From NCBI GenBank assembly GCA_030604405.1, contig JAUVVY010000004.1, positions 1 through 64,000 on the forward strand: DNA of 64,000 nt, in the 5' to 3' direction. The first letter of the stretch is position 1. Each line of letters starts with the position of its first letter. Made by a program: the position numbers and the translations under genes. Of the stretch, positions 1 to 15,519 are shown in pieces. The notes under the pieces were generated by a model that worked only from the letters and a program-made list of their open reading frames with translations, made no database searches and was not told the DNA's origin. Origin of the DNA: a bacterium (GTDB lineage: Bacteria; Armatimonadota; Zipacnadia; Zipacnadales; UBA11051).

Positions 1-1620
1 ACTGCACCTGAGCTGCCGAAGCACACGGGTTGGCATCACCACTGGGGCCATCGGTGATCGTTACCGTGTGCTCTACAGGATTGACCTGCTGGGTGTATTG
101 TCCTGTAGCGCTGACAGTATCATCTTCGGCGCACGTCACCGTCACACTGATGGTGTAGCTGACTATCGCGTCCGTGCGGTTCTCCGGCGCAGTCCAGATC
201 GGGTTCTGAGCACTGGCATCGTCGAAGCTGCCGACACTATTGCCTGCGCTGTCTTCTGCCGTCCAGGCATAGGTCAGGCCGTGCCCACGGCTGTCTTCTG
301 CAGTCACGCTGCACTGCACCTGCGCTGCCGAAGCACACGGGTTGGCATCACCACTCGGGCCATCCGTGATCGTTACCGTGTGCTCTACAGGATTGACCTG
401 CTGGGTGTATTGTCCTGTAGCGCTGACAGTATCATCTTCGGCACACGTCGCCGTCGCACTGATCGTGTAGTCCGCAGTCTCATCAGTCAGATTCGCAGGC
501 GCAGTCCAGATCGGGTTCTGCTTCGTCGCATCATCGAAGCTGCCGACACTATTGCCTGCGCTGTCTTCGGCCGTCCACGCATACACCAGAGTATGGCCTT
601 GCCGGCTGTCTTCTGCAGTCACGCTGCACTGCACCTGAGCTGCCGAAGCAGACGGGTTGGCATCACCACTCGGGCCATCGGTGATCGTTACCGTGTGCTC
701 TACAGAATTGACCTGCTGTGTGTATCCTCCTGTAGCGCTGACAGTACCATCTTCGGCACACGTCACCGTCACACTGATGGTGTAGTTGACTGTCGCGTCC
801 GTCCGGTTCTCCGGCGCAGTCCAGATCGGGTTCTGCTTCGTCGCATCGTCGAAGCTGCCCACATTATTGCCTGCGCTGTCTCTTGCCGTACACGCATACA
901 CTAGAGTATGTCCCTGCCGGCTGTCTTGTGCAGTCACGCTGCACTGCACCTGAGCTGCCGAAGCACACGGGTCGGCATCACCACTCGGGCCATCCGTGAT
1001 CGTTACCGTGTGCTCTACAGGATTGACCTGCTGGGTGTATCCTCCTGTAGCGCTGACAGTGTCATATTGGGCACACGTCACCGTCGCACTGATGGTGTAG
1101 TTGACTGTCGCGTCCGTCCGGTTCTCCGGCGCAGTCCAGATCGGGTTCTGCTTCGTCGCATCATCGAAGCTGCCGACACTATTGCCTGCGCTGTCTTCGG
1201 CCGTCCACGCATACACCACAGTATGGCCTTGCCGGTTGTCTTCTCCAGTCACGCTGCACTGCACCTGCGCTCCCGAAGCAGAGGGCTCGTCCCCACCCCT
1301 GGGACCGTCCGTGATCGTTACCGTGTGCTCTACAGGATTGACCTGCTGTGTGTATTGTCCTGTAGTGTTGATAATATCATCTTCCGCACACGTCACCGTC
1401 ACACTGATGGTGTACTCGACTGTCGCATCCGTCCAGTTCTCCGGCGCAGTCCAGATCGGGTTCTGCTTCGTCGCATCATCAAAGCTGCCGACATTACCTT
1501 CCGCACTCCACTCGTAGTTCAAGTCATGGCCGTGTGTATCCTCGGCAGTCACACTGCACTGCACCTGAGCTGCCGAAGCACACGGGTTGGCATCACCACT
1601 GGGGCCATCCGTGATCGTTA
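1..1620 (-). repeat. Tandem ~105-codon Ig-like repeats inside the giant secreted protein
   Basis: The same block recurs with starts of a shared landmark at 61, 373, 688, 1003, 1318 and 1618, so units are 312, 315, 315, 315 and 300 bp, all multiples of three. Read on the minus strand each unit contains VQCSVTAEDS, YAWTAEDSAGN, VGSFDDA, QNPIWTAPENRTDA, YTISVTVTCAEDD and YTQQVNPVEHTVTITDGP in order, a beta-sandwich-like pattern. Nucleotide identity between units is high, which suggests recent duplication or gene conversion. The array continues past position 1. Confidence 0.85.
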
Positions 1621-3742
1621 CCATATGGATGATCCTGAGCGGATTGCCACTCCAACTCACCCAATCCGACCACCTGCCTGCACTGCACTGCACACGCAAC
1701 GAGATATTGTGATCGGCCTCGGACAAGTCGCTCTTATCAAACTCGGCTGAGCTACCGATCACTCCATCCACATCTGACTTCCACTCATATCCTGTTATCG
1801 TATGTCCCGGCTGGTTGTCGGAACCACTGCCCACAAAGTGCACTGCCTCACCCAGGTCCTGAGGATTAGGCGTCACACTCTCTATTGTCGCCGTCACGGT
1901 GTGATTGATGATCGTGAGCGGATTGCCGCTCCAACTCATCCAATCCGACCACGTACTGCCACTGCACTGCACACGCAACGAGATATCGTGATCACCCTCG
2001 GACAAGTCGCTCTTATCAAACACGGTTGAGCTACCGATGACGCCATCTACATCTGACTTCCACTCATATCCTGTTATCGTATGACCCGGCCAGTTGTCGG
2101 AACCACTGCCCACAAAGTGCACTGCGTCACCCAGGTCCTGCGGATTAGGCGTCACACTATCTATTGTCGCCGTCACCGTGTGATCGATGATCCTGAGCGG
2201 ATTGCCACTCCAACTCACCCAATCCGACCACGTAGCGCCACTGCACTGCACACGCAACGAGATATTGTGATCACCCTCGGACAAGTCGCTCTTATCAAAC
2301 TCGGCTGAGCTACCAATGGCTCCATCCACATTTGACGTCCACTCATATGCTGTTATTGTATGAGCCGGCAGGTTATCCGAACCACTGCCCACAAAGTGCA
2401 CTGGCTGCCCGAGCTGCTGCGGCTCAGGAGTCACACTGTCTATTGTCGCCGTCACCGTGTGATCGATGATCGCGAGCGGATTGCCACTCCAACTCACCCA
2501 ATCCGACCACGTACCTGCACTGCACTGCACACGCAACGAGATATTGTGATCAGCCTCGGACAGGTCGCTCTTATCAAACACGGCTGAGCTACCGATGGCT
2601 CCATCCACACTCGACGTCCACTCATATGCTGCTATCGTATGACCCGGCCAGTCGTCGGAACCACTGCCGACAAAGTGCACTGGCTGCCCTAGCTGCTGCG
2701 GATCGGGAGTCACACTATCTATTGTCGCCGTCACCGTGTGACCTACCAGCGTCAGTTCCACCACTGTCACACCATAGTGGGCCATCCCGCTGTACAGGCC
2801 GCCCCATGCCATCGTGTGATAGCTGTGATCCCACGTGTTGCAGATGTTGATGGTGCCCGCGTCCGTATCGTACCCGAACCCGACCATCGAGTGGCCTGTC
2901 ACCTGAATTATCACTGAGCGACCGGCATCTATCTCCGCCTGGAAATCCTCAAAGGTGAATCCGTTCGTGTTCCCGTCCCAGCCGTAAATACGCTGGCTGT
3001 AGTTGTCCTCTACCGTGTAACCCCGCGACTGGACAAACAGGCGCATACCGTGACACCCGCCGCGTCTGCCGGGTTCGGAGCCCGTATAGTCATGCAGCGG
3101 GGTTCCGTCGGCGTAAAAGTAAAACCACGTGCTCCCATCGGTGGACTCATACCTCCACTGACTCGTCCCCATGTAGTCGGCGGTGCAGTCTCCCAGGGTG
3201 TGTTCAGTCCAATTCCCGACGTAGGGGTCCGGCCCGGGTTGACCAAAGGCAATCCAGTAGTCATCTACATGCCCCTTAATCAGCCGCCCATCTATCCCCT
3301 GATGCGTGGCACTCAGGGGACACTCACCGCCTCCCCAGACCGAGTTGTTCAACGGGAAGGCGCCCGCGTTGGTCGGGCCCGCGTACATATTGTCAAAGGC
3401 GTGAGTATCGTACCAGCCGAACATCATCGCCGCAGAGGTTGCAGAGCACCCGTAGCACCAGTCAAGCGCCGGGAAGCTCGCCAGCGCGTTGGTGGCTCCT
3501 GACGGATGCGGCCGCGGCGGCGGCCCCCTCGGGAAGTCAATGTAGCCGGGCGGTGGTGGTGACGGCGGCACAAGGACCTCTATCACCTCTTTCCCCCGAT
3601 ACATGAACCTGTCCACAATGTAGGGGTCAAGTGGCGACGCGCCCGATGCTGCCGGTGCCTCCACCAAGAGCCCGGCACAAACTGCCAGTAATACTACAAC
3701 TGCAGCGAATGGCAATAGCGTACCGCACGATTGCGAACGCAT
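1..3742 (-). CDS. Giant secreted C39-like cysteine peptidase with PKD-like and Ig-like tandem repeats (C-terminus beyond window)
   Basis: A single open frame runs from an ATG at 3742 off the left edge (at least 1247 codons) with no stop seen on reading. GGGAGGAG lies at 3749-3756, a good ribosome binding site. The product starts with a hydrophobic signal peptide (about residues 1-30, ending near EAPAASG). A papain-fold domain follows: the motif DWCYGCSATS (about residue 85) supplies a candidate catalytic Cys, GHSMVGFGY a candidate His, and NTWD an Asn/Asp, as in C39-like peptidases. After this come four 93-residue PKD-like repeats and five or more ~105-residue Ig-like repeats. Inference: an exported protease or adhesin-like protein held off the cell by its repeat stalk. 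Activity is not shown. The gene follows the chaperone island directly, separated by a terminator-like hairpin, and has the same orientation. Confidence 0.85.
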   Translation of the reverse strand, partial: MRSQSCGTLLPFAAVVVLLAVCAGLLVEAPAASGASPLDPYIVDRFMYRGKEVIEVLVPPSPPPPGYIDFPRGPPPRPHPSGATNALASFPALDWCYGCSATSAAMMFGWYDTHAFDNMYAGPTNAGAFPLNNSVWGGGECPLSATHQGIDGRLIKGHVDDYWIAFGQPGPDPYVGNWTEHTLGDCTADYMGTSQWRYESTDGSTWFYFYADGTPLHDYTGSEPGRRGGCHGMRLFVQSRGYTVEDNYSQRIYGWDGNTNGFTFEDFQAEIDAGRSVIIQVTGHSMVGFGYDTDAGTINICNTWDHSYHTMAWGGLYSGMAHYGVTVVELTLVGHTVTATIDSVTPDPQQLGQPVHFVGSGSDDWPGHTIAAYEWTSSVDGAIGSSAVFDKSDLSEADHNISLRVQCSAGTWSDWVSWSGNPLAIIDHTVTATIDSVTPEPQQLGQPVHFVGSGSDNLPAHTITAYEWTSNVDGAIGSSAEFDKSDLSEGDHNISLRVQCSGATWSDWVSWSGNPLRIIDHTVTATIDSVTPNPQDLGDAVHFVGSGSDNWPGHTITGYEWKSDVDGVIGSSTVFDKSDLSEGDHDISLRVQCSGSTWSDWMSWSGNPLTIINHTVTATIESVTPNPQDLGEAVHFVGSGSDNQPGHTITGYEWKSDVDGVIGSSAEFDKSDLSEADHNISLRVQCSAGRWSDWVSWSGNPLRIIHMVTITDGPSGDANPCASAAQVQCSVTAEDTHGHDLNYEWSAEGNVGSFDDATKQNPIWTAPENWTDATVEYTISVTVTCAEDDIINTTGQYTQQVNPVEHTVTITDGPRGGDEPSASGAQVQCSVTGEDNRQGHTVVYAWTAEDSAGNSVGSFDDATKQNPIWTAPENRTDATVNYTISATVTCAQYDTVSATGGYTQQVNPVEHTVTITDGPSGDADPCASAAQVQCSVTAQDSRQGHTLVYACTARDSAGNNVGSFDDATKQNPIWTAPENRTDATVNYTISVTVTCAEDGTVSATGGYTQQVNSVEHTVTITDGPSGDANPSASAAQVQCSVTAEDSRQGHTLVYAWTAEDSAGNSVGSFDDATKQNPIWTAPANLTDETADYTISATATCAEDDTVSATGQYTQQVNPVEHTVTITDGPSGDANPCASAAQVQCSVTAEDSRGHGLTYAWTAEDSAGNSVGSFDDASAQNPIWTAPENRTDAIVSYTISVTVTCAEDDTVSATGQYTQQVNPVEHTVTITDGPSGDANPCASAAQVQ
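1624..2739 (-). repeat. Four tandem 93-codon PKD-like repeats
   Basis: Four units of exactly 279 bp. On the minus strand each encodes HTVTATIDSVTP, HFVGSGSDN, GHTITGYEWKSDVDG, FDKSDLSEGDH, ISLRVQCS and WSDWVSWSGNPL. The YEW...D.DG and HxIxLRVxxS elements are typical of PKD-type extracellular beta-sandwich domains. The units differ at few positions. Confidence 0.85.
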
Positions 3743-3845
3743 TTTCCGCTCCTCCCGTTGGGGCTCAGTGTCAGCCCCTGACGCGATCACGCCAGGAAAC
3801 GTCGGTGTCTCAAAGCTTCTTACTCTCAGACGACGGCAAGTAACC

Positions 3846-3889
3846 AAAAGGCCCGGCCGCTTGCCGGGAATACTCCGGCGGGCCGGGCT
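3846..3889 (-). terminator. Rho-independent-type terminator downstream of the chaperone island
   Basis: GCCCGGCC (3851-3858) pairs with GGCCGGGC (3881-3888), with an inner GCCGGG...CTCCGGC pairing. Read on the minus strand the stem is followed by TTTT (3849-3846). It lies about 200 bp beyond the stop at 4094 and about 100 bp before the ATG at 3742, so it can separate the two transcription units or act as a leader attenuator of the peptidase gene. Nothing else was recognised in 3743-4093, and the leader matches no riboswitch class known to me. Confidence 0.6.
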
Positions 3890-4093
3890 ATGCGATCATT
3901 CACAATTCTTCTTCCAGCCAGGCCCAGCCAACACTCTACTCTCGCCGCAATGCTACTGGATGGCTATTCGCCACGGCCGACGTATTGCCCTGCCAAATCA
4001 AAAGAAATTTTGCAGCCCTGCCCACCTCACCCACTGAAGACAGTCGAATGCCTCAGCCGAGCCACCGAATACACGCGACCGCACCACAGCCCA

Positions 4094-5137
4094 TCACTCT
4101 TTGCTGGCTCTGTGCTCTTTCAAGAACGCCGGAATGGGGCCGCCTGGATCAAGCACTACCTTGACCCGGATTCCCGTAGGGATATTTCTGGGATTGCGTG
4201 GCAGATGCGGGTTGGCAGCATAAATATCGGGCCAGCGATTCCCGTCGCCGTAAAAGCGTTTTGCGAGCTTCCAGAGTGTGTCTGTATTGGCGAAAACGAC
4301 TTCCACCGGGCTGACAACGTCCAGCGCCTCGGCATTGACCTTGTCTGAGCCTGCAAACGCCTTGGCGAGTGCGACAATCCAATCTCTGTCAGCTTGCGTG
4401 GGGGCCAGTCCCCCAAGGGCTAGCTCTCCCCCAGTCTGCTGCACCTTGAGCTCTCTCAGCCAGTCCTCGTTGGCTTCTAAACAGATATTGGCGAGTCTGG
4501 AGAGGCTCTGGACAGCAATCTCTGAGCCATCCACACCATAAAGCTCGGCTGCTTGCTTGGTTGCCAGAGCGACGGCGAGCTGCTTGTGGGCAGAAGTGGG
4601 CGCATTGCCAACCAAGGAAATAACCCCATCAGATGCCACCGCCTCCAGGTCAGCACCGCTCAAACTGGGGTTGGCCGCCCAGGAAGCCTGAATCGCTGTC
4701 GCAACCTGGCCTTCAGCAGGGCGCGTTAGAGAGCGGTAGGATCTGGGTATCTGTGACCCTAACAGTACCAAGATGCCGAGCGCAACAATGCCCAGAACTA
4801 GGGTGAGACGGCTATTGCGAGCGGCGCGGTCCAGGATACTGGTGGCCTTCTCGATCCCGGCGCGCGCAGCCGAATCGTCTGCATCAATGGCAAGCGCCAC
4901 TTCCCAGCGTGTGATTGCCTGATGCATGTCACCAAGCTGAGCGTGTACTTTCCCCAGTAACACCAGAGCCGGCACAAAAGCGGCGTCGAGTTGGAGTACG
5001 AAAACGAGCATGTCTCGTGCCGCCACCAATCTCCCCGCCTTGGCCTCAGCAAGCGCCCGGTTATATCCCAGGTGCGGCAGCTCGTTCAGCAACTCTGCGG
5101 TTGTGCGATCAGGATAAGCCAAGTCAGTCGACTCCAT
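4094..5137 (-). CDS. Membrane protein: TPR - transmembrane helix - BON domains - LysM
   Basis: A 347-residue protein with four recognisable parts. Residues 20-105 form an N-terminal TPR-like region, presumably cytosolic. Residues 111-129 form one transmembrane helix (LTLVLGIVALGILVLLGSQ). A BON-like domain follows (about 142-212, with DGVISLVGNAPT), and a second degenerate BON-like stretch (about 219-278). A C-terminal LysM (about 279-328, with TDTLWKLAKRFYGDGNRWPDIYAANP) completes it. BON domains bind membranes or lipids and LysM binds peptidoglycan, so the protein could tie the cytosolic chaperone machine to the envelope; this is inference from architecture. It is the last gene of the island, 58 bp after the degenerate Hsp70 gene. 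The start ATG at 5137 has only a weak ribosome binding site. Confidence 0.8.
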   Translation of the reverse strand: MESTDLAYPDRTTAELLNELPHLGYNRALAEAKAGRLVAARDMLVFVLQLDAAFVPALVLLGKVHAQLGDMHQAITRWEVALAIDADDSAARAGIEKATSILDRAARNSRLTLVLGIVALGILVLLGSQIPRSYRSLTRPAEGQVATAIQASWAANPSLSGADLEAVASDGVISLVGNAPTSAHKQLAVALATKQAAELYGVDGSEIAVQSLSRLANICLEANEDWLRELKVQQTGGELALGGLAPTQADRDWIVALAKAFAGSDKVNAEALDVVSPVEVVFANTDTLWKLAKRFYGDGNRWPDIYAANPHLPRNPRNIPTGIRVKVVLDPGGPIPAFLKEHRASKE

Positions 5138-5195
5138 AAGATAGCTGGGCCCAGCCCGAGAGCCATAATGCTCACGTCCGTGGCTGGCTGAGCCA

Positions 5196-6677
5196 TCAGC
5201 TTCGCCTCTTTTTCGTCTTGCGCCTGGTCTTACTCTTGCGCCCGGCCTTGGACGCAGTGGTCTTTGCTCTGCGCCCGGACGTCCGTTCTCTTACCTCTCT
5301 GGCCAGCCTATTGTCAGGATCGAGGCTCAGGCTCTCGCGCCGGCGGTCTCGACATTCTCGCCAGTTCTTGTCCTCGGCATTCCGCTGTGCCTCCTCGGCA
5401 TGAAGCTGCGCCAGTTGCTTCCTGACATCATCGTGCGACGGATCGTAATCCCAGCTTTTCTGGAAATGTTTTCGGGACTCTTGCCACTCCCCAGCCCGGG
5501 CATGGATCAGTGCCTGCTGGGCATGAACGGCGGCCAGTTTCTCTTTGATAGTCTCGCTCTCTGGCGGCTTGTCCTGGAGTTCGCGCTCCAACTCAGCTCG
5601 TTCCGCTGCAAGCAGTTCCGCCTGCGACAGCGGTCGCCAGCAGTTAGATGTGCTCGCGGCATACTTGGCGGCGCCGAGTGCCACCGCATCGGCGGGGGCA
5701 ATAGTTGGCGGCTTACCAAAGCATTCCTCTAACTTCTGGCGGACCAGCGGGGTCTGTGCAGTGCGTCCGAGCACGAGTACGTGGTCGAGGGCCGCGATAT
5801 CCCACTCCGCAGTCTCTGCCGCCGCTCGTGCCAACTCAATGGTGCGATCGACAATGGGAGTTATAAAACGCTCCAGTTGGATGCGCGCCAAAGGGTAGTC
5901 GTCATGGAACGATCGGCCTCGCGAGTCTCTCCCGGGCCCCACCTCGATCTGCGCATCTTCGGCAGTTGACAATAGAATCCTGGCCGCTTCGACACTCGCC
6001 CGCAGCTTTGAAAGAGCGGACGGATCCGACAAGACTCCGACACCGTGCGAGACAGCGTAAAGTTGATCAATATTGCACATGATTGCAGCGTCGAATGCGT
6101 CGCCCGCAAGATGCACATTGCCCTCATGGCTGAGCGCATTAAGTTTGCCGCGAGATTGCTCCACCAGGACCGCCGAAACAGAGAAGAAACTTCTGCCCAG
6201 GCAGTAAACTAGTACCTTACTGGCAGCGTCGTGCTTCGGCAGCGAGCCCAGAGCGGCGGCCAGAGATTCGTCCAACACGGAGACGTTGTCGAAGCCAGCA
6301 GCTTCAACGGCCGAACGCAAGACGGCACGCTGGTTGATGGGATAGATGCTGGGAGCGCAAACGGTCGCACCAGTTACTCGCGCTCCCAATTCCGCTTCAA
6401 GTCTTGATCTAAGAGCGCGGAAGTGGCTGACCGCGTCGTGCTCTCCACTATCCAGAGGCTGCCCCTTCGGTCCGGCCTGCTTGCGAGCGCTGCCCAACCT
6501 TGTCTTGAGGGACTCAATACGCAGGCATCCTTCTGTATCCTGGCGCTGGTGGCTCGGCTCAACGAGCAGGCCCACGTCAACAGCTACTTCATCAAACGGG
6601 ATCCGGGCACCAGCGCCGTCATCAATGGCTACGCGGGAGGCACTGGCCCCGAAGTCTATTCCAATACCATTGCCCAT
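5196..6677 (-). CDS. Degenerate Hsp70-like ATPase-fold protein with TPRs and a lysine/arginine-rich tail
   Basis: The 493-residue product keeps the Hsp70/actin-fold outline but not its catalytic motifs. The N-terminal phosphate loop reads GIDFGASASRVAI (DLGTTNS in DnaK). The second phosphate loop reads VYCLGRSFFSVS where DnaK has VYDLGGGTFDVS. The adenosine-side motif reads LVLGRTAQTP instead of LVGGSTRIP. There is no substrate-binding domain; residues about 360-465 are helical and TPR-like, and the last 25 residues are very basic (KAGRKSKTRRKTKKRRS). It is probably a weak or non-hydrolysing nucleotide-binding scaffold paired with the intact DnaK just upstream (36 bp). The ATG at 6677 is preceded by GGAGGG. 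Confidence 0.8.
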   Translation of the reverse strand: MGNGIGIDFGASASRVAIDDGAGARIPFDEVAVDVGLLVEPSHQRQDTEGCLRIESLKTRLGSARKQAGPKGQPLDSGEHDAVSHFRALRSRLEAELGARVTGATVCAPSIYPINQRAVLRSAVEAAGFDNVSVLDESLAAALGSLPKHDAASKVLVYCLGRSFFSVSAVLVEQSRGKLNALSHEGNVHLAGDAFDAAIMCNIDQLYAVSHGVGVLSDPSALSKLRASVEAARILLSTAEDAQIEVGPGRDSRGRSFHDDYPLARIQLERFITPIVDRTIELARAAAETAEWDIAALDHVLVLGRTAQTPLVRQKLEECFGKPPTIAPADAVALGAAKYAASTSNCWRPLSQAELLAAERAELERELQDKPPESETIKEKLAAVHAQQALIHARAGEWQESRKHFQKSWDYDPSHDDVRKQLAQLHAEEAQRNAEDKNWRECRDRRRESLSLDPDNRLAREVRERTSGRRAKTTASKAGRKSKTRRKTKKRRS

Positions 6678-6712
6678 ATCTACAGCGTCCCTCCAGTAGG
6701 GCGGGATGATGC

Positions 6713-8914
6713 CTACTCGAGCGAAGTGGGCCCCTTGTCGCGCTGCTCAATTGGAGCCTCGGCGTTGCTCTGCTTCAGCACTTCAACCAACTCGTCGGTC
6801 TTGCGAGAGAATTCGTCCGGGCTTCCGTTGCTACGCAAGTTCTGACGCAGTTCGCGAACGAGCGATTGCATGCGATTCTTCGTCCCGGCCTCGAGGTCGC
6901 CATATCTGCAGCGCATTTCGACGTGAAGCAGGAATATCAAACCCTTGAATTCCTTTTCGAGCAGGTCGTCAATCTCCTGTTCCAGGCGCCGACCGTTGCT
7001 CTCATCCTTGTCGTCCAACGCCTGGCGCCCTTGTTTGACAAGAGCTTCAATCTCCCGCTCCGCACTGGAGCTTAGGAACCAGTCGTACTCCTCAAGCGCC
7101 ATCTCCGCCTCCACGATACTCCATAGCAGGCGGCGCGCCCACTGGGGCAGCCGATCCGCGTCTTCTTCTTCACCATTCCCGTTGTCAAACTCAATCTGAG
7201 GCTCTTCTTTACTCCTGATTCGTGGGTCAATCACGACCGCTTGCTCCCGGCCGGAGCCGTCCTGGATTATTGCCCTGATGCTGAGGCATCCATGACGGTC
7301 AATGTCAATGCTGATATCCACCGGGGTCTTTGCAGCCAGAAACAATCCTTCGAGGTCGATATGTGCGGCCCCTAAATATTGTTGGGGATCGTTGGGGTCG
7401 AATTCCTCGACCTGTGCATCGTAAAGAGGCACGAGTACTGCTACGTCACTATCTTGAGCGGTGTGGTATCTGTGAACCAGGGATTCGAGCGTCGGGTACG
7501 CCGTGCCCTTAGGAGCCATCACTTTGTACGCTCCGCCAGCAGCAAGCAGTCCAACAGGTTTTCCCAGAACTGTGTTCTGGATGAGCTCCTGGAAGGAATG
7601 GCCGCACTGGGCACACTGCTGAGCTTCGATGGGATTACTCGCCTCACACTGCGGGCACTTCTTCTCAGGGATCAGTTTTGTACCGCACTTCCAACACGTG
7701 GTTGCATCCGGCGCGTTCTCCTCCTGATCCTCCGGGCAGATGATGCCGAGGATACGGTTGGCCGCAATCCCTGCGCCGAATGCGACACATTCCATAGGAT
7801 CAATATTGCGCATAATCCGCTCAGCACCAAATTCGGCCTCCAAGATTCTCTGTACAAGTGGAATTTGGGTAGAGCCGCCCACCAAGAGCACATGGTCGAG
7901 CTGATCGGCAGTCATAGCCGCTTCGTCCAACGCCTTCCGCACCAGCACCATTGTCTTTTCAATGTCAGCGCGGATCATGCTCTCGAAATAGCTGCGGGTG
8001 ATTTCAACGTCCACGTCGCCACGATCACCATCCGGCAGCGGCACCATCGCCTGCAAGACAATGTCTGCCGACTCCATGTCGCTGATCTGCGTCTTCGCCC
8101 TCTCCGCAGCCCTCTTCAGCAAGACCATAAGGCGGGCGTCGTCCCGAAGATTCTCTACACGATACTCCTTTTCAGTCTCCTCCACGGCATAATCAATAAT
8201 GACCTGGTCAAAGTCGTCGCCGCCGAGCCACATGTCGCCCTCGATGGCTAGTTCGATGAAGTTGACGCCGACAATCGAAATAACTGTGACGTCAAAAGTG
8301 CCGCCACCCAGATCATAGACCAGCACATTTGTCATGTCCCCGAGGTTTGCCCCCGCGCCAAACGCCATCGCAGCGGCCGTGGGCTCGGTCACGAGGGTCT
8401 TCACCCGCAGACCGGCTAGCTCCCCAGCCTCTCTGGTGGCCGCCTTCTGGCTCAGTGAGAAGTATGCCGGCACTGTTATGACAGCATGTGTAACATCCTC
8501 TCCCAAACGTTTCGACGCGTCCTCCCTCATGCGGCGTAGAATCATTGCCGAGACATCTTGCGGACGCAACATCTCGTCACCGAGCATAACCTGCAGATCA
8601 TCACTATCTTCAGGCTTCACGACCCGGTATTCGTTACGCCTTGTGACTTCCTCAACATTGGGATCATCATAGAACCGGCCCATAAGACGCTTGATTGAAA
8701 AAATCGTGTTTTCCGGATTGGAGCCGGCGTTGTCCATGGCTTGCGTTCCAATTAGCGTTTCGTGGGTTTTTCGATGCAGCCCCACGACCGACCGCGTTTG
8801 GCGTTCGCCCGCCTGGTTCAAAACGACTTGACCTCCGTGCTCGTTTTCGAGTGCGACGACCGAGTTAGTCGTCCCAAGATCGATACCTACAGCTACAACG
8901 TTCATGTTAATCAT
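6713..8914 (-). CDS. DnaK-family Hsp70 chaperone with zinc-ribbon insert
   Basis: The 733-residue Hsp70 has a well conserved ATPase domain: GIDLGTTNS (10-18), VYDLGGGTFDVT (199-210), LLVGGSTQIP (343-352) and FGAGIAA (379-385). The short conserved interdomain linker is replaced by a cysteine-rich segment with C393, C407, C410, C420, C423, C434 and C437, which looks like one or two zinc ribbons. The following beta region is a divergent substrate-binding domain, and the C-terminus (about 590-733) is acidic, helical and coiled-coil-like. The start ATGATTAA overlaps the grpE stop by 8 bp, so translation is probably coupled. An alternative ATG lies three codons downstream. Because of the insert and divergent C-terminus this is probably a specialised Hsp70 and not the housekeeping DnaK. 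Confidence 0.92.
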   Translation of the reverse strand: MINMNVVAVGIDLGTTNSVVALENEHGGQVVLNQAGERQTRSVVGLHRKTHETLIGTQAMDNAGSNPENTIFSIKRLMGRFYDDPNVEEVTRRNEYRVVKPEDSDDLQVMLGDEMLRPQDVSAMILRRMREDASKRLGEDVTHAVITVPAYFSLSQKAATREAGELAGLRVKTLVTEPTAAAMAFGAGANLGDMTNVLVYDLGGGTFDVTVISIVGVNFIELAIEGDMWLGGDDFDQVIIDYAVEETEKEYRVENLRDDARLMVLLKRAAERAKTQISDMESADIVLQAMVPLPDGDRGDVDVEITRSYFESMIRADIEKTMVLVRKALDEAAMTADQLDHVLLVGGSTQIPLVQRILEAEFGAERIMRNIDPMECVAFGAGIAANRILGIICPEDQEENAPDATTCWKCGTKLIPEKKCPQCEASNPIEAQQCAQCGHSFQELIQNTVLGKPVGLLAAGGAYKVMAPKGTAYPTLESLVHRYHTAQDSDVAVLVPLYDAQVEEFDPNDPQQYLGAAHIDLEGLFLAAKTPVDISIDIDRHGCLSIRAIIQDGSGREQAVVIDPRIRSKEEPQIEFDNGNGEEEDADRLPQWARRLLWSIVEAEMALEEYDWFLSSSAEREIEALVKQGRQALDDKDESNGRRLEQEIDDLLEKEFKGLIFLLHVEMRCRYGDLEAGTKNRMQSLVRELRQNLRSNGSPDEFSRKTDELVEVLKQSNAEAPIEQRDKGPTSLE

Positions 8915-9485
8915 CCTTTTGCGGCTCGTTGAATGACTCCGGCGCCGTCTGGGTGGCCGTAGTCATTGACGTATTTCTGGCCACTACTACCTTCGCTTTG
9001 CGAAGGATCTCGCCTCGCCACAACCACCCACGCTCGAGCACTTCGAGGATGGTGTTATCAGAGACATCATCACGTTCAATGAAGTCCTCCACCATCACAC
9101 TGCCTGGGACAGGTCGAAGAAGGTCAATGGGGACAACGTGATCCATGGCCAGAAGGCCCTCCAGGGTTCGGCGAGTGCGCTTCACTCGCTTGAACCATTT
9201 GAGGGCTTTAGGCTCGGTGGGATCATCTCTGGCTTCCTCAACTGAAATCATCCGATCGAAATTATCCATTAGCTGTTCGATGATCTCGATATAGAATTTG
9301 CGTTTGGCGGCATCTTGCTGGTGGCGGATTTCGTCGAATTCGTTGTGGAGCTCGTGCAGTTCTTGCTCAGTGTCCTCCGCCCCAGCGCAGATCACGGCCC
9401 AGACGCTGGTCAATTGCTCATCTTGAGCGACGCTAGTCGGGAGGGGTTGCTCGTCAAAGACGAACTCGGCAGGTATCTGCTCCAT
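8907..9485 (-). CDS. grpE: GrpE-family nucleotide exchange factor
   Basis: Over the 192 residues there is an acidic N-terminus, then a long coiled-coil helix (ELHNEFDEIRHQQDAAKRKF) and the GrpE core IIEQLMDNFDRMI. The beta-wing region has VPIDLLRPVPGSVMVED and DNTILEVLERGWLWRGEILRKAKVVVA, matching the GrpE head (G-Y/W-x-L-x-x-R-x-L-R-x-A-x-V-x-V). Role: releases ADP from the partner Hsp70, whose gene overlaps this one by 8 bp. The ATG at 9485 is chosen because GGGGG stands 8 bp upstream, immediately after the stop of the J-like gene. A longer form starting at 9542 would overlap that gene by 44 bp. Confidence 0.85.
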   Translation of the reverse strand: MEQIPAEFVFDEQPLPTSVAQDEQLTSVWAVICAGAEDTEQELHELHNEFDEIRHQQDAAKRKFYIEIIEQLMDNFDRMISVEEARDDPTEPKALKWFKRVKRTRRTLEGLLAMDHVVPIDLLRPVPGSVMVEDFIERDDVSDNTILEVLERGWLWRGEILRKAKVVVARNTSMTTATQTAPESFNEPQKDD

Positions 9486-9498
9486 CTCGCTGGCCCCC

Positions 9499-9930
9499 TT
9501 ATGAATCGAAGCGGACATGCTTCGGCAGCACTGGCGCGTCAAAGAACCGACGGAGATAGCTTAAGGTCACGTCGCGGAACTTGATGGGCGTTCGGAAGCG
9601 AGCCGCTCGCCCTTGATGGAGGTCGGTAAACTCTCGCCCAAGTGTGATCGGCGGAAACGCCGGCTGGATGGCCGGGGGTTCTACCGGCACCTGTCCATCG
9701 TATTGCGCATTCTCAGGGGTATCTGCTTGGTAGTGCCAGAAGTCTTCTTCAATTCGAGAGTCCGAGCGGCGTAACCGCCTCCAGGCATCGGTGATTTCCT
9801 GGTGTCGCTTGCGGTTCTTGGGGTCACCGCTGAGATCAACATACGCCTGCTGAACGTCGGCCATGGTGGCCTGGGGCGTTAGTCCGAGGACTTCGTACGC
9901 ACGCTTTCTGCTATCCAACGGGTCTTTCAT
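9499..9930 (-). CDS. J-domain-like protein lacking the HPD motif
   Basis: A 143-residue protein. Its first 65 residues follow a J domain: RKRAYEVLGLTPQATMADVQQAY (helices I and II), a loop, then HQEITDAWRRLRRSD in place of helix III (KEINEAYEVLSD in DnaJ). The loop reads DLSGDPKNRKR, so the HPD tripeptide that stimulates Hsp70 ATPase is missing (GDP stands there) and helix II is short. The rest is proline-rich with no G/F region, zinc finger or DnaJ C-terminal domain. It lies between grpE and the giant TPR gene, which supports a link to Hsp70. It may be an adaptor that binds without activating. ATG at 9930 follows GAGG; a TTG at 9960 is less likely. Confidence 0.72.
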   Translation of the reverse strand: MKDPLDSRKRAYEVLGLTPQATMADVQQAYVDLSGDPKNRKRHQEITDAWRRLRRSDSRIEEDFWHYQADTPENAQYDGQVPVEPPAIQPAFPPITLGREFTDLHQGRAARFRTPIKFRDVTLSYLRRFFDAPVLPKHVRFDS

Positions 9931-10024
9931 TTTCAGCCTCACTCGACTCAGATTGTGCAAGACAGCTACCGTTATCCTATGCGGTGCTCCACAAGCGCCA
10001 CTAGAACCGCCGGCCCGGGCCGCT

Positions 10025-13000
10025 TTACATCGCGCTCACAGCTCTGAGGTTCTTCATAGCGTGGTCGTTTGTGGGATCAATTTGCAGTGCTTCCATCAGC
10101 AGATTGACGCCGTCCTGAAAGTCAGAAGAGTACGTGCTGTAAGCCTTGTTGCACTTGTCTACACCCCAGTTTGAGAGCATGAGAGAAAGGTCCTTCTTGT
10201 GCTCGGGGGCGCCGGGATCGAGGTCCACTACCTGACGCATTAGTCTCACGGCTGCAGCGTAGTTATCACGATTGAACAGCTTAATTGCGTCATTTCTCAT
10301 GACATGCCCCAAGTTTTCCTTAGCCTTGACATTGTTGGGATGAAGCTCAAGGGCGTACTTGAGATGCTTCTCACATTTGTCCCATTGGTCAGCGTTGCCG
10401 GCGATGATGCCCAAGGTGGCGTAATACTCCGATAGATTGATGCGAAGCCTCTCAGTCTTCACGCTATCAAGCGCTACTTCGAGAATATTGATAGCAGCAT
10501 GCAAGTCGCGGTGATCATCTTTGGGGTCTCCGGGGGGCTTCAAACTCAAGTTCATTCGCTTGAGCTTCCGGATTAGGTTTCTCAACGCCGTCTCCGAAAG
10601 CTTTTTGATTTTCTTGAGATCTCGTTCCGTGTGATCCAGAAGCTGGCCCAAGTTGACAATGTTCGCCTTCTTCAGACCTTCGCATGCCGAGGCGGGAAGC
10701 TCAAGGGTCTCTATCGGTCTGGCCAGCACGTTAGCCCTCGGACCTTTATTGTTCCACCGAGTGGCCTCACGGACCGCGGTATCCTCCACCTGTCCCTTTA
10801 TTTGGTCGCGCAGCGATTTGCGCTCACGAACATGAGATAGACCGGCATGCCAGGTCTCGAGGGCTTGCAGTATATCGCCTGAGGCTGCGATGGCTCTACC
10901 TTGTTCCAGGTGGGCCATAGCGGCTAGATCGTGGCCATCCTTAGAGGAAGCCTGCTGCTCCAGTGCCGGCATCAATATGTCGAGAGCTCTTGCGTACGAG
11001 CCCTCCTTGATCATGGACCAGGCGAGCACCCAAGGTGATAGCGCCCAGTGTAGGTCATCGGTTGTTTCATCTGTCGGATGGGCCGACTCAAGGACGGCGA
11101 ACAGTCTGTTCGCAGTTGGCAACTGGTCGAGATGCTGGAGCATCATGGCACCGCAGATAATGAGCGTATCAACGCTTCGGCCTTCGTCTTGCAACTGCAC
11201 GGCTGCCGCGGCAAGGGCTTCAGCGGCCCGCCGCTCTGCGGATAACTTCGCCGACAGTAGCGTCAGGCGTTCCAGGTCGCTGGCTCGATTGTCATCTCTG
11301 GCGGCATCTGCATATTCGGTCAGGGTTCGCGCCAGATGCTCCAGGAGCTTTGTTTGTAGAGTCGCCACTGCATTGACGGGCACGCTCCCGCAGTATTGCT
11401 CGCGCTCCCTGGTCCAGCGGCTCCAGAACTCATCGTTACTACAAAGCGCGACCCAGTTTCGAATTGCGCCTTGCCAGGCCTTCGCAGCTTCAGTGCCATG
11501 GCCGGCATCTTCCAGCGAACGTGCTGTCCAGTAGTACAATAGCGCCAGAGAGTGGGTCGCTCGCAGGTCATGCGGGTCACGTTGCTGCGCCTCTTCCCAT
11601 AGTTGCGCCGCCTCCTCGTGCCGCCCCGCGCCCACCACAATATAGGCCGCATAACCGCCAAGTGACCGAAGCATTTCCTGCAGCTCAGGGTCTTCCGAAC
11701 CCACGGCCAGCGCCCGTTGCAGGGCATCCACCGCCTCCGCCCAGTTCCCCTCGGCCGCGCGGGTCTGCGCCCAGAATTTGCATACTACCGCCAAAGCCTG
11801 CCGACTGGCCTCCACATCGTCCACGGCTCTTTCAAGGCAACCAGCCGCCTCCGATAGATGACCACAACTGAACTGGACCAGTCCCAAGTAGTAGTGCGCC
11901 ATCGGATGACTATTCTGACTGGCAACTGCGGACAACAATGCCTCAGCGCCCTCCATTTCGCCCAACCTGAGCAGGCAGTAGGACTGCAGCAAGGCCGGCG
12001 CTGCTGCCGCTGTCTGTGGGAGCGGAACTTGAGCGGCGTCGTGCAAGATTTCATAGAGGTGATCGTTGCTATGGACCGCGCCTTGTTGCGGGTTAGTAAT
12101 AGAGGCCGCCTGGCTTGTCGCCGCGCCGCCAACAGGTCTTGGTTGGATCGCCTGCAAGGCCGCGGAGCAGTCGCCGGCCATAGCACATACCGTCGCGTAA
12201 ACAAAGTCCAGCGGCAGGTCGAGATCGGTCCAGGGACCGCTCTGCAACGCGCCTTCGAACGTCTGCCGCGCATGCTGGCCTCGTCCGGCCGCGGTCTGTG
12301 TGAGTGCCAGGTGATAGAGGGCTCGCGTCGCGTGGAGCGGGGTCGGAGCTGCGGCTGCTAGCTCCGCGAGGGCTTCGCTGGCCGCGCCGTGCTCGCCCAG
12401 ATCGGCATTCAGAAGAGCGTCAAAATATCGGCAGGACCAATGTTCGGGACAGGAAAGCAGGCCGAGTTCCAGCAGCATCTGTGCATCGCTGCACTTGGTG
12501 GCGTCGCTCAGGTATGCTTCGGCAGCGCGAAAATACGCATCGCCAACGTCTCTTTTCAGCTTTTCGTCCTCAGGACGCGACTTAAGAGACGCTTCCCAGT
12601 ACTCAGCCGCGCGCGTCCACTCGCCGCCCTGTGCGCACTGACAGCCGGCCAGGTAGCCTGACCGTCGGCGACTGAGAGCGACACGTTCGTCGTCTGGACA
12701 GCGCTCCGAAAGCTTTGAAAATGCTTCAATAGCCTCTTCATACCCCTCGACACTCGCAGCCGCAAAACCTAGATGGAACAGGACGGCATTGCCATCATCC
12801 CCGAGCTGCACCGCACGGCGCAGGTGCGCCAATGCCTGATCCCACTGTTCAGCCGCGCAGCTCAACAAGCCAAGGCGGTGAAACGCGTATGCAGCTTCCG
12901 GAAACGCCTCCGCCACTTTCTCGTAAGTTGCGTTAGCCTCATCGGCAGAATCCCCGGCTTCAGCGGCCCACCCCATAAGCTGAAGGGCTTGCAGATAGAG

Positions 13001-14767
13001 CTCCGGCGACGTATCCGAGACGTCTGCAGCTTGATTCACCACAGTCTGTGCAAGCTCCCCCGCTTTCTGAGCATCTCCACACGCTCCGTGGGACACACCC
13101 AGGGCGAGGGCCACCTCCGGATGAGCATTAGACTCTGCGTAGGCGGTCTGATAGTCGTCCCGGGCAGCCTCGTAGTCGCCGCTGCCGAAGAAGGCATGGC
13201 CCCTCTGCAGGTAGGCCTGCCAGCGCGAGGTGTCAGCGTCGATCGCCAGGGACAGCCATTCAACCGCCTCAGGAAACTCTCCGGCATGCGCCCGTGCACA
13301 GCCGAGGTAGTACAACTCGTCCCAGCCCGCATCCGGCCTCGACGCCGCCTTGGTGAGTAACTCGAGCGCCTGGGCCGTATCACCCGTGCGCAGGTACGAG
13401 CGCGCCAGGCATAGGGTAGCTTTTCGTGGCCGAGAGGGTAAGGCCGCCAGGTTACGCTTAGCCTCCTGGTAGTCACCAAGCAGGAACAATGCTTGGCCCA
13501 GCCCAAGCATTGCCCGCACGCATGATTTGTCCAGTAAGAGCGCCTGATTGTAGTTCTTGACTGCTTGCTCCAGCACACCACGGATCATACAGATGTCCGC
13601 GGTGACGCGGAATATCTCCGGATTCTTCTTGTCAAGTGAGTACGCCGTCTTGAGGGCCTCGTTGGCATCTGCCGACTGCCCCAGAACCTCCAGTACGGCT
13701 GCCAGGTAGGTGTAGAACTCCTTGCGGGTACTGTCAAGCGCAACTGCCTTTGCCAGGCTCGTTTGGGCGGCTTCAAACTGCCCGCAATGAGCCTGTGCTC
13801 GTCCGAGCATAAAGCTATACTGCGCATTTGTCGGGTCACGGGAGACGACTGTCTGCAGTCGTTCGATCGCTTCCTGTGCGCGGGTCGCAATGAGCGTGGC
13901 GCTATTGGGCGGGTCCGTCAATTCCAGCTCATCGCACACGACGACGCAAGTCCAACCTGCCAGGTACAGCGGCTCCGGAGCGTCCGGGCGCAAAGTGACA
14001 GCCTGTTCGAAGGCGTCCAGAGCCGCATCAAACGAACGCTCGTTTACGCGGAGCTTCCCGCTACATAGCGCAATATGATAAGCCGTCTCAGGGCGGCTCG
14101 GATCAAGACGTGTGGCCGTATTGAAGGCCTTTATTGCTTCGACATATTGACCGCCTCCTGCCAGAGCCAGACCCATGTAGAAATGAGCCCATTCGACCTG
14201 GGGATCTTCAGACAACACCAATCGGCATCGCTGCAGATTCGCTTTGAAGGCGTCTCGGTCTGCCCCTTCCTCGACGCGACATTGGGCTTCGACAAAGCTC
14301 GCCACAGTAGGATCGGCCTCGGCCTGTCCCTGCCGAACCTGCGCCAGATAATCCACTGCAACGCGGAAGCCCATATCGCTCTGGGGGTCCTGCTCGACAA
14401 ACCAACGCACCAGGAAGAGGGATATTTCCGCAGACAGAGCACTATATGCGCGCGCAGCCATATATGCGTGTGCAGCCTCGGCCACATCACCTTCAGCCTG
14501 AAGCAGTTGTCCGCGTTGAAGATGAGCCCGGCCGAGGCAGGTGCGATGTTTGCTTGAGAGCTCATCAACAGAACTCAGAATCCGGACCACAGTATCATAT
14601 TCATGCAAGGCCCGCCGGACTTGACCCTTCTCGCCCTGCCGCGCTGCTCGGTCAAGCTTTTTCTGATATCGGGCTGGATTGCCGGGCATTGGCAACAGGC
14701 CGAACAGGAAGCTGGCACGGTCGCGGAAGGTCAAACCTCTGGTTTTAGGTCTGGGCGAGTTGCTCAC
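10025..14767 (-). CDS. Giant TPR scaffold protein with an RNA-polymerase alpha-CTD-like domain
   Basis: About 1580 residues, almost entirely TPR helices (typical units such as AHFYMGLALAGGGQYVEAIK and NALLF/ALFLLGDYQEAKRN-type pairs). At about 1343-1411 (10535-10740) sits a separate domain running RPIETLELP...CEGLKKANIVNLGQLLDHTERDLKK...NLSLK. This aligns end to end with the C-terminal domain of RNA polymerase alpha (RPVDDLEL...LKAE.I..IGDLVQRTEVEL). The DNA-contacting residues of E. coli alpha (R265, N268, C269, K298) are replaced here by S, E, G and T. A few more TPRs follow. There is no signal peptide. A GTG at 14767 is preferred: it follows the PP2C stop by 2 bp and has GGTGG upstream; an ORF start at 14800 would overlap the phosphatase gene. 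Likely the scaffold of the machine. Confidence 0.85.
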   Translation of the reverse strand: MSNSPRPKTRGLTFRDRASFLFGLLPMPGNPARYQKKLDRAARQGEKGQVRRALHEYDTVVRILSSVDELSSKHRTCLGRAHLQRGQLLQAEGDVAEAAHAYMAARAYSALSAEISLFLVRWFVEQDPQSDMGFRVAVDYLAQVRQGQAEADPTVASFVEAQCRVEEGADRDAFKANLQRCRLVLSEDPQVEWAHFYMGLALAGGGQYVEAIKAFNTATRLDPSRPETAYHIALCSGKLRVNERSFDAALDAFEQAVTLRPDAPEPLYLAGWTCVVVCDELELTDPPNSATLIATRAQEAIERLQTVVSRDPTNAQYSFMLGRAQAHCGQFEAAQTSLAKAVALDSTRKEFYTYLAAVLEVLGQSADANEALKTAYSLDKKNPEIFRVTADICMIRGVLEQAVKNYNQALLLDKSCVRAMLGLGQALFLLGDYQEAKRNLAALPSRPRKATLCLARSYLRTGDTAQALELLTKAASRPDAGWDELYYLGCARAHAGEFPEAVEWLSLAIDADTSRWQAYLQRGHAFFGSGDYEAARDDYQTAYAESNAHPEVALALGVSHGACGDAQKAGELAQTVVNQAADVSDTSPELYLQALQLMGWAAEAGDSADEANATYEKVAEAFPEAAYAFHRLGLLSCAAEQWDQALAHLRRAVQLGDDGNAVLFHLGFAAASVEGYEEAIEAFSKLSERCPDDERVALSRRRSGYLAGCQCAQGGEWTRAAEYWEASLKSRPEDEKLKRDVGDAYFRAAEAYLSDATKCSDAQMLLELGLLSCPEHWSCRYFDALLNADLGEHGAASEALAELAAAAPTPLHATRALYHLALTQTAAGRGQHARQTFEGALQSGPWTDLDLPLDFVYATVCAMAGDCSAALQAIQPRPVGGAATSQAASITNPQQGAVHSNDHLYEILHDAAQVPLPQTAAAAPALLQSYCLLRLGEMEGAEALLSAVASQNSHPMAHYYLGLVQFSCGHLSEAAGCLERAVDDVEASRQALAVVCKFWAQTRAAEGNWAEAVDALQRALAVGSEDPELQEMLRSLGGYAAYIVVGAGRHEEAAQLWEEAQQRDPHDLRATHSLALLYYWTARSLEDAGHGTEAAKAWQGAIRNWVALCSNDEFWSRWTREREQYCGSVPVNAVATLQTKLLEHLARTLTEYADAARDDNRASDLERLTLLSAKLSAERRAAEALAAAAVQLQDEGRSVDTLIICGAMMLQHLDQLPTANRLFAVLESAHPTDETTDDLHWALSPWVLAWSMIKEGSYARALDILMPALEQQASSKDGHDLAAMAHLEQGRAIAASGDILQALETWHAGLSHVRERKSLRDQIKGQVEDTAVREATRWNNKGPRANVLARPIETLELPASACEGLKKANIVNLGQLLDHTERDLKKIKKLSETALRNLIRKLKRMNLSLKPPGDPKDDHRDLHAAINILEVALDSVKTERLRINLSEYYATLGIIAGNADQWDKCEKHLKYALELHPNNVKAKENLGHVMRNDAIKLFNRDNYAAAVRLMRQVVDLDPGAPEHKKDLSLMLSNWGVDKCNKAYSTYSSDFQDGVNLLMEALQIDPTNDHAMKNLRAVSAM

Positions 14768-14769
14768 GG

Positions 14770-15519
14770 TTATCCACCTTCTTCCGCTGCGGGTCGGCAC
14801 AGAGCAGCGACTACGGCTGTAACGTCATCGCGAGAGCCTCGTTCCCTGACCAACGCGGCCAAGGCGTTGCCTCTATCTGCAAGCGGCACGGGGAGATTGC
14901 AGGCCTCTGCGATCTCACCGTCCGAAACAAAGCTCGACAGCCCATCGCTGCAAAGGAAAATGATGTCCCCCGGTGCTATCTCGCATTCGAACACATCCGC
15001 ACCACTTGGGACTAAAGAGCCGAGTGCGGCGAGTAGAAAACGGCGCTGTGGCTTTACGGCATCGACGTCATCGGCAGGGTCGCTTGCAAGCGTCTCAGAG
15101 CCGCTGACGTGATCGTTAGTCAGTTGCTCGATCGCTCCGTTCCTGACTAGATAGGCGCGGCTATCACCGATGTGTAGAAAGAAGGCGCTGGTCGAGCGCA
15201 CCAGGCATGCCGTCAGCGTTGTGCTCATTCGATTGCAGCCCGGATGTTCGGCGCCGACCTGCCTGACACGGACATCGCACTGCTCGGCAGCAAGTGACAT
15301 AAGTTCGAGATCGGTGCCTGGCTCGGCGGCGAGCGCGGGGCTCTTGAAGAATTCGAGCAGGGCATCTATAGCGGTGTGGCTTGCCAGTTCACCCGCCGGA
15401 CCGCCACCAACGCCGTCTGCAACGGCCAGCAAACCGATCTCGGGAGCTACGCAAAAGGCGTCCTCGTTGACGGTTCTGTGCGGGCCCTGAGTTGTGATGC
15501 CGTGAGCTTCCATTTGCAT
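14770..15519 (-). CDS. PP2C-family Ser/Thr protein phosphatase
   Basis: The 249-residue product is a stand-alone PP2C catalytic domain. It keeps the metal-binding and catalytic motifs in order: NEDAF, ADGVGG, HIGDSRAYL, LCSDGLSSF and the final RGSRDDVTAVVA. No transmembrane segment or extra domain is present, so it is probably cytosolic. It sits directly after the kinase gene, so it is the natural antagonist that dephosphorylates kinase targets, including the FHA ligand or the TPR scaffold (inference). Three ATGs are close together (15525, 15519, 15513); 15519 has GGTGG at the best distance, and 15525 would give an ATGA overlap with the kinase stop. Confidence 0.93.
   Translation of the reverse strand: MQMEAHGITTQGPHRTVNEDAFCVAPEIGLLAVADGVGGGPAGELASHTAIDALLEFFKSPALAAEPGTDLELMSLAAEQCDVRVRQVGAEHPGCNRMSTTLTACLVRSTSAFFLHIGDSRAYLVRNGAIEQLTNDHVSGSETLASDPADDVDAVKPQRRFLLAALGSLVPSGADVFECEIAPGDIIFLCSDGLSSFVSDGEIAEACNLPVPLADRGNALAALVRERGSRDDVTAVVAALCRPAAEEGG

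Follow-up and report, generated by a model that had tools for sequence, protein, structure and literature searches.

A probable exported papain-fold peptidase on a repeat stalk in a Zipacnadia genome, and its C-terminal tail shared across the Armatimonadota

The DNA analysed here, hereafter the window, is a stretch of 64,000 nt (positions 1 to 64,000 of contig JAUVVY010000004.1, assembly GCA_030604405.1) from a bacterium placed in UBA11051 of the Zipacnadales (Zipacnadia, Armatimonadota). It opens on a minus-strand gene that an earlier note, made from the sequence alone, had described as a giant, repeat-built secreted peptidase and had tied to the chaperone genes beside it. The locus raises the question of what this protein is, how it might leave the cell, and whether its repeats and its neighbours bear on its function. 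We consider it probable that the product of this gene is a modular papain-fold cysteine peptidase that is exported and carried on a stalk of PKD and immunoglobulin-like (Ig-like) domains, with a C-terminal tail that other proteins share and a stalk whose units recombine.

Module order of the joined gene

The gene occupies positions 1–3742 (minus strand), within an open frame of 1282 codons, 1247 of them from the ATG at 3742, and the frame exits at position 1, in agreement with the length of at least 1247 codons claimed in the earlier note. Position 1 is the true end of the contig, here C54. The C-terminus, which the note had proposed to seek by long-read assembly, was located on a second contig of the same genome (C31) through an exact, in-frame overlap: the first 120 bases of C31 (C31:1–120) copy the end of C54 (window 1–120, minus strand), spanning the end of repeat unit B5 and the start of B6, and the remainder of the gene runs along C31:1–2303 on the plus strand to a stop codon at C31:2303. 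The joined frame encodes 1974 aa, which is a minimum length because the contigs meet within the repeat array. In k-mer assembly, a break of this type usually marks a shared stretch with more than one continuation; the nearest other copy of the overlap in the joined array matches it at 117 of 120 bases. From the N-terminus onwards, the modules are a likely signal peptide, a domain of predicted papain fold, four PKD units, at least eight Ig-like units, and a 440-aa tail with an FlgD_ig end.

Residues ~1–36 (3635–3742, minus strand), read by eye, combine a charged start, a hydrophobic run and AxA-type sites, and the AlphaFold2 (AF2) model places a helix at residues 12–25 with low confidence. This segment is likely a Sec signal peptide, which would take the peptidase out of the cell via the Sec route.

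The N-terminal domain that follows (residues ~80–334; 2741–3505, minus strand) precedes the repeats, as the earlier note had said of its C39-like domain. The window protein matches Peptidase_C39_2 (PF13529) at E = 2.6e−4 with 22.0 bits, against a gathering cut-off of 24 bits. A scan of bacterial and archaeal genomes returned 196 relatives of the domain, from which 79 loci were kept, and an alignment of the window protein with 57 of these (58 sequences, A3) contained a PF13529 match at E ≤ 0.01 in every sequence, the best at 1.4e−11. The AF2 model based on the 58 sequences has a predicted papain fold (pLDDT, the predicted local distance difference test, 89.2; pTM, the predicted template modelling score, 0.85). 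Structural comparison with VIA-align, for which best Z scores are usually 7–8 in models without a clear match (according to the tool's note), gave Z = 11.8 for staphopain (1pxv_A; root-mean-square deviation, rmsd, 3.5 over 150 aligned residues), 11.6 for SpeB (4d8b), 10.8 for the C39-like peptidase 3erv (rmsd 2.9, 145 aligned) and 10.6 for a PCAT-type peptidase (6mpz_D), values that differ little from one another, with chymopapain also among the rows. A sequence search of the PDB with the catalytic profile found 3erv as its sole match at E = 0.66, which we treat as a lead rather than as evidence.

Cys99 and His284 are invariant in all 58 sequences of A3 and in all 14 of a smaller alignment (A1), made of the window protein and 13 loci that were found with the whole domain and without the Cys-bearing pattern. 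Position 302 holds Asp in 50 and Asn in eight sequences of A3; in A1, 11 sequences have Asp there, the window protein has Asn, and L019 and L020 have Thr, so that Asp or Asn occurs in 12 of 14. Cys99, His284 and Asn302 are the presumed catalytic residues, assigned by position and motif, and from these together with the model we infer that the domain would cleave protein.

Tandem Repeats Finder divided the rest of the window frame into 4.0 copies of a 279-nt period (1628–2741) and 5.2 copies of a 315-nt period (1–1622). The first set corresponds to four 93-aa PKD-like units, A1–A4 (2740–2462, 2461–2183, 2182–1904 and 1903–1628; together 1628–2740, minus strand), which jointly match PKD (PF00801) in two stretches at 28.7 bits over a cut-off of 23.5, two single units remaining under it at 15.6 and 21.1 bits. 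The second set comprises five Ig-like units of ~105 aa, B1–B5 (1627–1328, 1327–1013, 1012–698, 697–383 and 382–71; together 71–1627, minus strand), all complete in the window, with B6–B8 lying on C31. The B units that were scanned match no Pfam family over its cut-off. The AF2 model of B2–B3 (pLDDT 95.1) consists of two all-beta domains, for which Foldseek found 338 chains at E ≤ 0.001, with tandem domains of the Ig, Fn3 and cadherin types among the best; in VIA-align, the PKD domain of 1l0q_A, a surface-layer protein from an archaeon, came first (Z = 9.2; 82 residues aligned at rmsd 2.3), level with rows for cadherin and Ig domains. Whole-protein Pfam and NCBIfam matches to FGF-BP1, Fumarate_red_C, Tub, RF-1, MsrP and ChrR on the repeats were rejected as spurious, none of the stretches passing alone. 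Strung together, the PKD beads (four) and the Ig-like beads (eight or more) would form a stalk that sets the distance of the enzyme from the cell. The predicted papain fold and the Ig-like beads support the description of a giant peptidase with a repeat stalk, with 'secreted' to be read as probably secreted.

The C-terminal tail and its possible export route

While the peptidase is ordinary in kind, the most interesting part of the protein lies outside the window, in the tail of ~440 aa encoded at G000:C31:981–2300 (G000 being the genome of the window). Its end matches FlgD_ig (PF13860) at 32.1 bits over a cut-off of 27, at residues 377–445 of the last 460 of the protein; Pfam and NCBIfam name the last ~70 aa of the tail only and hold no full-length family for it. 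FlgD_ig matches fall in nine places of the genome, eight of them over the cut-off, and nine large proteins of the genome share the whole tail (25–32% identity to that of the peptidase), each ending at a stop codon. Three of the eight companions of the peptidase are S8 subtilisins, and a PD40 propeller and Ig or carboxypeptidase-regulatory modules also occur among the eight; two show no Pfam match at E ≤ 1e−5 outside the tail. Subtilisins with the same tail may act alongside the exported peptidase.

We searched a model of the tail against the genome itself and 60 relatives, chosen from genus to phylum rank, and obtained matches at E ≤ 1e−10 in 61 of 61 genomes, with between at least 1 and at least 29 matches per genome. 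The best E value per genome ranged from 6.9e−167 to 1.3e−27 and was ≤1e−60 in 57 of the 61, beyond what the 70-aa FlgD_ig part would give; the four genomes with a weaker best value were G033, G047, G049 and G051. Among the 79 peptidase loci, at least five have frames that end with the full tail (L073, L074, L087, L089 and L105) and at least 12 more contain part of it. These counts are lower bounds, since the same-genus locus L071, whose frame is cut by the contig end and matches tail positions 1–252, was missed in the whole-frame scan owing to the HMMER bias filter. A literature search of limited depth yielded no description of the peptidase or the tail in Armatimonadota.

No recognised export machine for the tail was found. 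The Por_Secre_tail model (TIGR04183) of type IX secretion system (T9SS) cargo is not among the matches of the window protein's tail at E ≤ 0.1 and matches one of the nine tails of the genome (E = 1.4e−4). SprA has no match in the genome (96.88% complete) and is over its cut-off in none of the 61 genomes of the phylum, with three of six control genomes (two Bacteroidota and one Cloacimonadota by title) passing it. With a tail that is not TIGR04183 and SprA without a match, the reading as a canonical T9SS cargo was set aside for this genome. The best PorV pieces in the genome reach 33 bits against a 90-bit cut-off; PorV remained under the cut-off in all five Armatimonadota genomes searched and passed it in all three controls. 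The PorV-like protein of the genome is TraF_2 by Pfam.

Weak SprA matches were nevertheless present in 28 of the 61 genomes, 34 of 35 rows falling at model positions 587–710 and in long frames. Nine of the proteins concerned (871–1202 aa) are mutually homologous by BLAST. This family of ~870–1200 aa, seen at L154:6139–9141 (minus strand) and in frames of L156–L163, comes from distant genomes of the phylum; a search with the SprA model saw none in seven genomes of the window's own family, and two members that were tested had no Pfam match. A search beside the TraF_2 protein found no gene of this family, the 970-aa neighbour being a glycoside hydrolase of family 2. Weak pieces of PorV and of SprA are separated by ~2.2 kb in G008. 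Judged from these matches, the ~1000-aa family is a possible outer-membrane translocon.

For the peptidase itself, the 440-aa tail with its FlgD-type Ig end would export it or anchor it at the cell surface. Going further, we tentatively suggest, as an idea that may well prove wrong, that the tail is a phylum-wide signal of Armatimonadota for export and surface attachment, borne in each genome by several large proteins, subtilisins among them. The outer-membrane machine reading it would then have at most a distant relationship to the type IX translocon, and the weak SprA matchers could be one candidate part of that machine.

Stalk evolution and competing readings

The earlier note had called the tandem 279-bp and ~315-bp units near-identical and had taken this as a sign of ongoing length change. 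The tandem arrangement and both periods stand, but DNA identity is only 88–92% among A1–A4, 81–91% among B1–B7 and 71–78% between B8 and the other B units, and identity at four-fold degenerate sites is 0.70–0.88 across both sets (12–30% differing). The units are thus too diverged to document present-day change; what finds support is length change by recombination. In a 17-unit tree, a branch with support 83/90 splits the eight B units of the joined array from the seven of a same-genus relative, a split present in 78% of bootstrap trees and as low in 0 of 500 shuffles. On average, two units are 79% identical in the window set, 41% identical in that of the relative, and 47% identical when taken from different sets. 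Maximum chi-square tests on nine triples, hand-picked and uncorrected for their number, gave values reached by at most 7 of 2000 permutations in seven triples, while the counts for the remaining two triples were 76 and 613 of 2000; B6 resembles a mosaic of B1–B4. The mosaic pattern fits exchange between units within the lineage of the window, and the number of stalk units probably varies, because the stalk would evolve through unequal exchange between units.

Several points weigh against the exported-peptidase reading as a whole. The window protein alone scores under the PF13529 cut-off, a whole-genome PF13529 search at E ≤ 0.01 did not return it, and Foldseek gave zero matches for the catalytic model at E ≤ 0.001. 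The invariance of Cys99 in A3 arises partly by selection, as the pattern used in the locus scan contained that Cys, although A1 agrees. Papain-like enzymes usually have a Gln just before the catalytic Cys, and the A3 columns just before Cys99 hold no conserved Gln. The Thr at position 302 in L019 and L020, both more distant members, means that the third residue is not universal. As for the stalk, the C54–C31 join depends on a single 120-nt overlap within a repeat, and sequence may be missing from the middle of the array; two of the nine triples showed nothing; and mosaic units can also be produced by short-read assembly.

Of the alternatives, the one that survives best, though we judge it unlikely, is that the papain fold is catalytically dead and serves as a binder, the protein as a whole being an adhesin. 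Long Ig-like arrays are common in adhesins, cadherin and titin tandems are among the structures that the B units match, and the Thr at 302 counts on the same side, albeit in two distant relatives, the window protein having Asn302. Against it, Cys99 and His284 are kept throughout both alignments and position 302 is Asp or Asn in 58 of 58 and 12 of 14 sequences, and three of the tail-bearing companions are themselves S8 peptidases.

It is more doubtful still that misassembly accounts for most of the repeat array or of its mosaic pattern, an error that the earlier note had named as a danger to its own claim. The contig does break inside the array, where the 120-nt overlap lies; window positions 1–4200, used as a query against the genome, matched C54 and C31 only, and the B1–B4 mosaic in B6 is what such an artefact might look like. 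Yet the units differ at 8–29% of bases, far above read error, the frame stays open over both contigs, and units of this type also occur, seven in number, in the same-genus relative, where they differ widely from each other (41% mean identity, as above).

The chaperone genes remain to be placed with respect to the exported peptidase. The earlier note had put the gene directly downstream of a chaperone island; orientation and order are as it said, but 351 nt lie between the genes (3743–4093), with one terminator-like site (3868–3852) against 0.7 expected in shuffles, no more than chance. The neighbour at 4094–5137 (minus strand) contains BON (PF04972, E = 1e−12), Phage_tail_X (PF05489, 22.2 bits, cut-off 22; a stretch we take to be LysM-like) and TPR-like (PF14559, 23.3 bits, under the cut-off of 25) stretches, and is the end of the chaperone set and no part of the peptidase system. 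Genes within the set are spaced by ≤64 nt or overlap. The set (4094–14800, minus strand) encodes an Hsp70 with a zinc ribbon, a shortened Hsp70 with TPR, GrpE, a DnaJ-like protein (under cut-off) and a TPR protein of 1591 aa that also has a domain of the RNA polymerase alpha C-terminal type, and it is an extra one because a further Hsp70 of the genome sits on C88.

Linkage of the pair in other genomes, which the note had proposed as a check, gave no conserved neighbourhood. Whole-genome searches of the 60 relatives covered two genes of the set, those of the BON protein and of the shortened Hsp70 with TPR, and found no close relative of either: the BON protein had short, weak matches only, in nine of 60 genomes, and the shortened Hsp70 with TPR matched Hsp70-type frames at 25–37% identity, along with one 65-residue TPR match at 44%. 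The peptidase domain was matched in 18 of the 60, and among these G016 alone had peptidase and Hsp70-TPR matches on one contig, ~78 kb apart. A tblastn search with all six genes of the set in 99 related loci (1.2 Mb, some contigs twice; upstream sequence of ≥5 kb is held by only 49 of the 79 peptidase loci) gave matches in two, both Hsp70-type, in Caldisericales, 36% identical to the large Hsp70 of the window and ~2.9 kb away from the peptidase; the same search found six of six genes in the window as a control. The idea that the giant peptidase is a client of this Hsp70/GrpE/DnaJ-like/TPR set, held unfolded for export, is therefore very improbable and was set aside on spacing and missing conserved linkage, even though the two adjoin on the same strand and the set, with its Hsp70, GrpE and DnaJ-like members, is an additional one; on the reading preferred here, the chaperone genes are coincidental neighbours.

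Relatives, known systems and meaning

By record title, relatives of the catalytic domain belong to Armatimonadetes and Zipacnadia (four Candidatus Zipacnadia), Cloacimonadota, Dehalococcoidia, deltaproteobacterial groups, Bacteroidetes, Acidobacteria, methanogens and others. A stop codon lies within the locus for 60 of the 79 frames, and a scan of the C-terminal 260 aa in 59 of these (all but L115, which has a masked stretch) identified Por_Secre_tail in 15, FlgD_ig in 13 and dockerin (Dockerin_1) in five. An ungapped offset scan detected internal repeats of ≥70% identity over 60 aa in 14 of the 79. These varied ends and internal repeats indicate, at the level of sequence, that the catalytic domain is a head set on varied stalks and ends in many phyla.

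Some individual loci are of interest in their own right. L080 and L090, both from Cloacimonadota, have internal repeats of ~193 aa whose copies are the same or almost the same (100% and 98% identity over 60 aa) and are better candidates for ongoing length change than the gene in the window. L112, L117, L118, L134, L135 and L144 have ends that look by eye like dockerin repeats, and some of these proteins may sit in cohesin–dockerin complexes. L072 has an open frame of at least 2991 aa, in which the same catalytic domain is followed by short repeats rich in glycine, serine and asparagine.

Set beside known systems, the window protein resembles Peptidase_C39_2 (with 3erv as structure) in its predicted papain fold, the positions of Cys and His and the GC-x-x-TS motif region, but differs in scoring below the cut-off when taken alone, in its length of ~330 aa with insertions, and in its PKD/Ig stalk. 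The bacteriocin-processing peptidases of MEROPS family C39 (PCAT1, ComA) are alike in fold (Z = 9.5–10.6); those enzymes are fused to an ATP-binding cassette (ABC) transporter and have a cytosolic place, whereas the window protein has a likely signal peptide and no transporter domain in Pfam scans of the window and C-terminal parts. With T9SS cargo it shares a beta-sandwich type of end (FlgD_ig), and 15 of the 59 relatives scanned end in Por_Secre_tail; its own tail, in contrast, is not called as TIGR04183 and its genome has no SprA match. PKD/Ig-like surface proteins, such as the archaeal surface-layer protein 1l0q, are comparable in that the A units are PKD by profile and the B units Ig-like by predicted fold, although the B units differ in matching no Pfam family over cut-off.

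A study of 57 Zipacnadia genomes reported extracellular peptidases (PMC10290634); its main text does not use the term C39 (0 occurrences), and its supplement lists all peptidases. Judging by the record names of relatives, the window protein appears to be of the same class, and the exported-peptidase reading fits that report.

With this gene, a lineage that is known largely through metagenomes gains a further enzyme that probably degrades protein. The gene follows a common pattern, the catalytic domain staying the same from phylum to phylum and the stalk and anchor being exchanged. Of greater weight than the peptidase is the tail: it is matched in all 61 genomes searched, on peptidases among other proteins, and with no recognised partner machine, and it makes the passage of large proteins across the outer membrane of this phylum a directly testable question.

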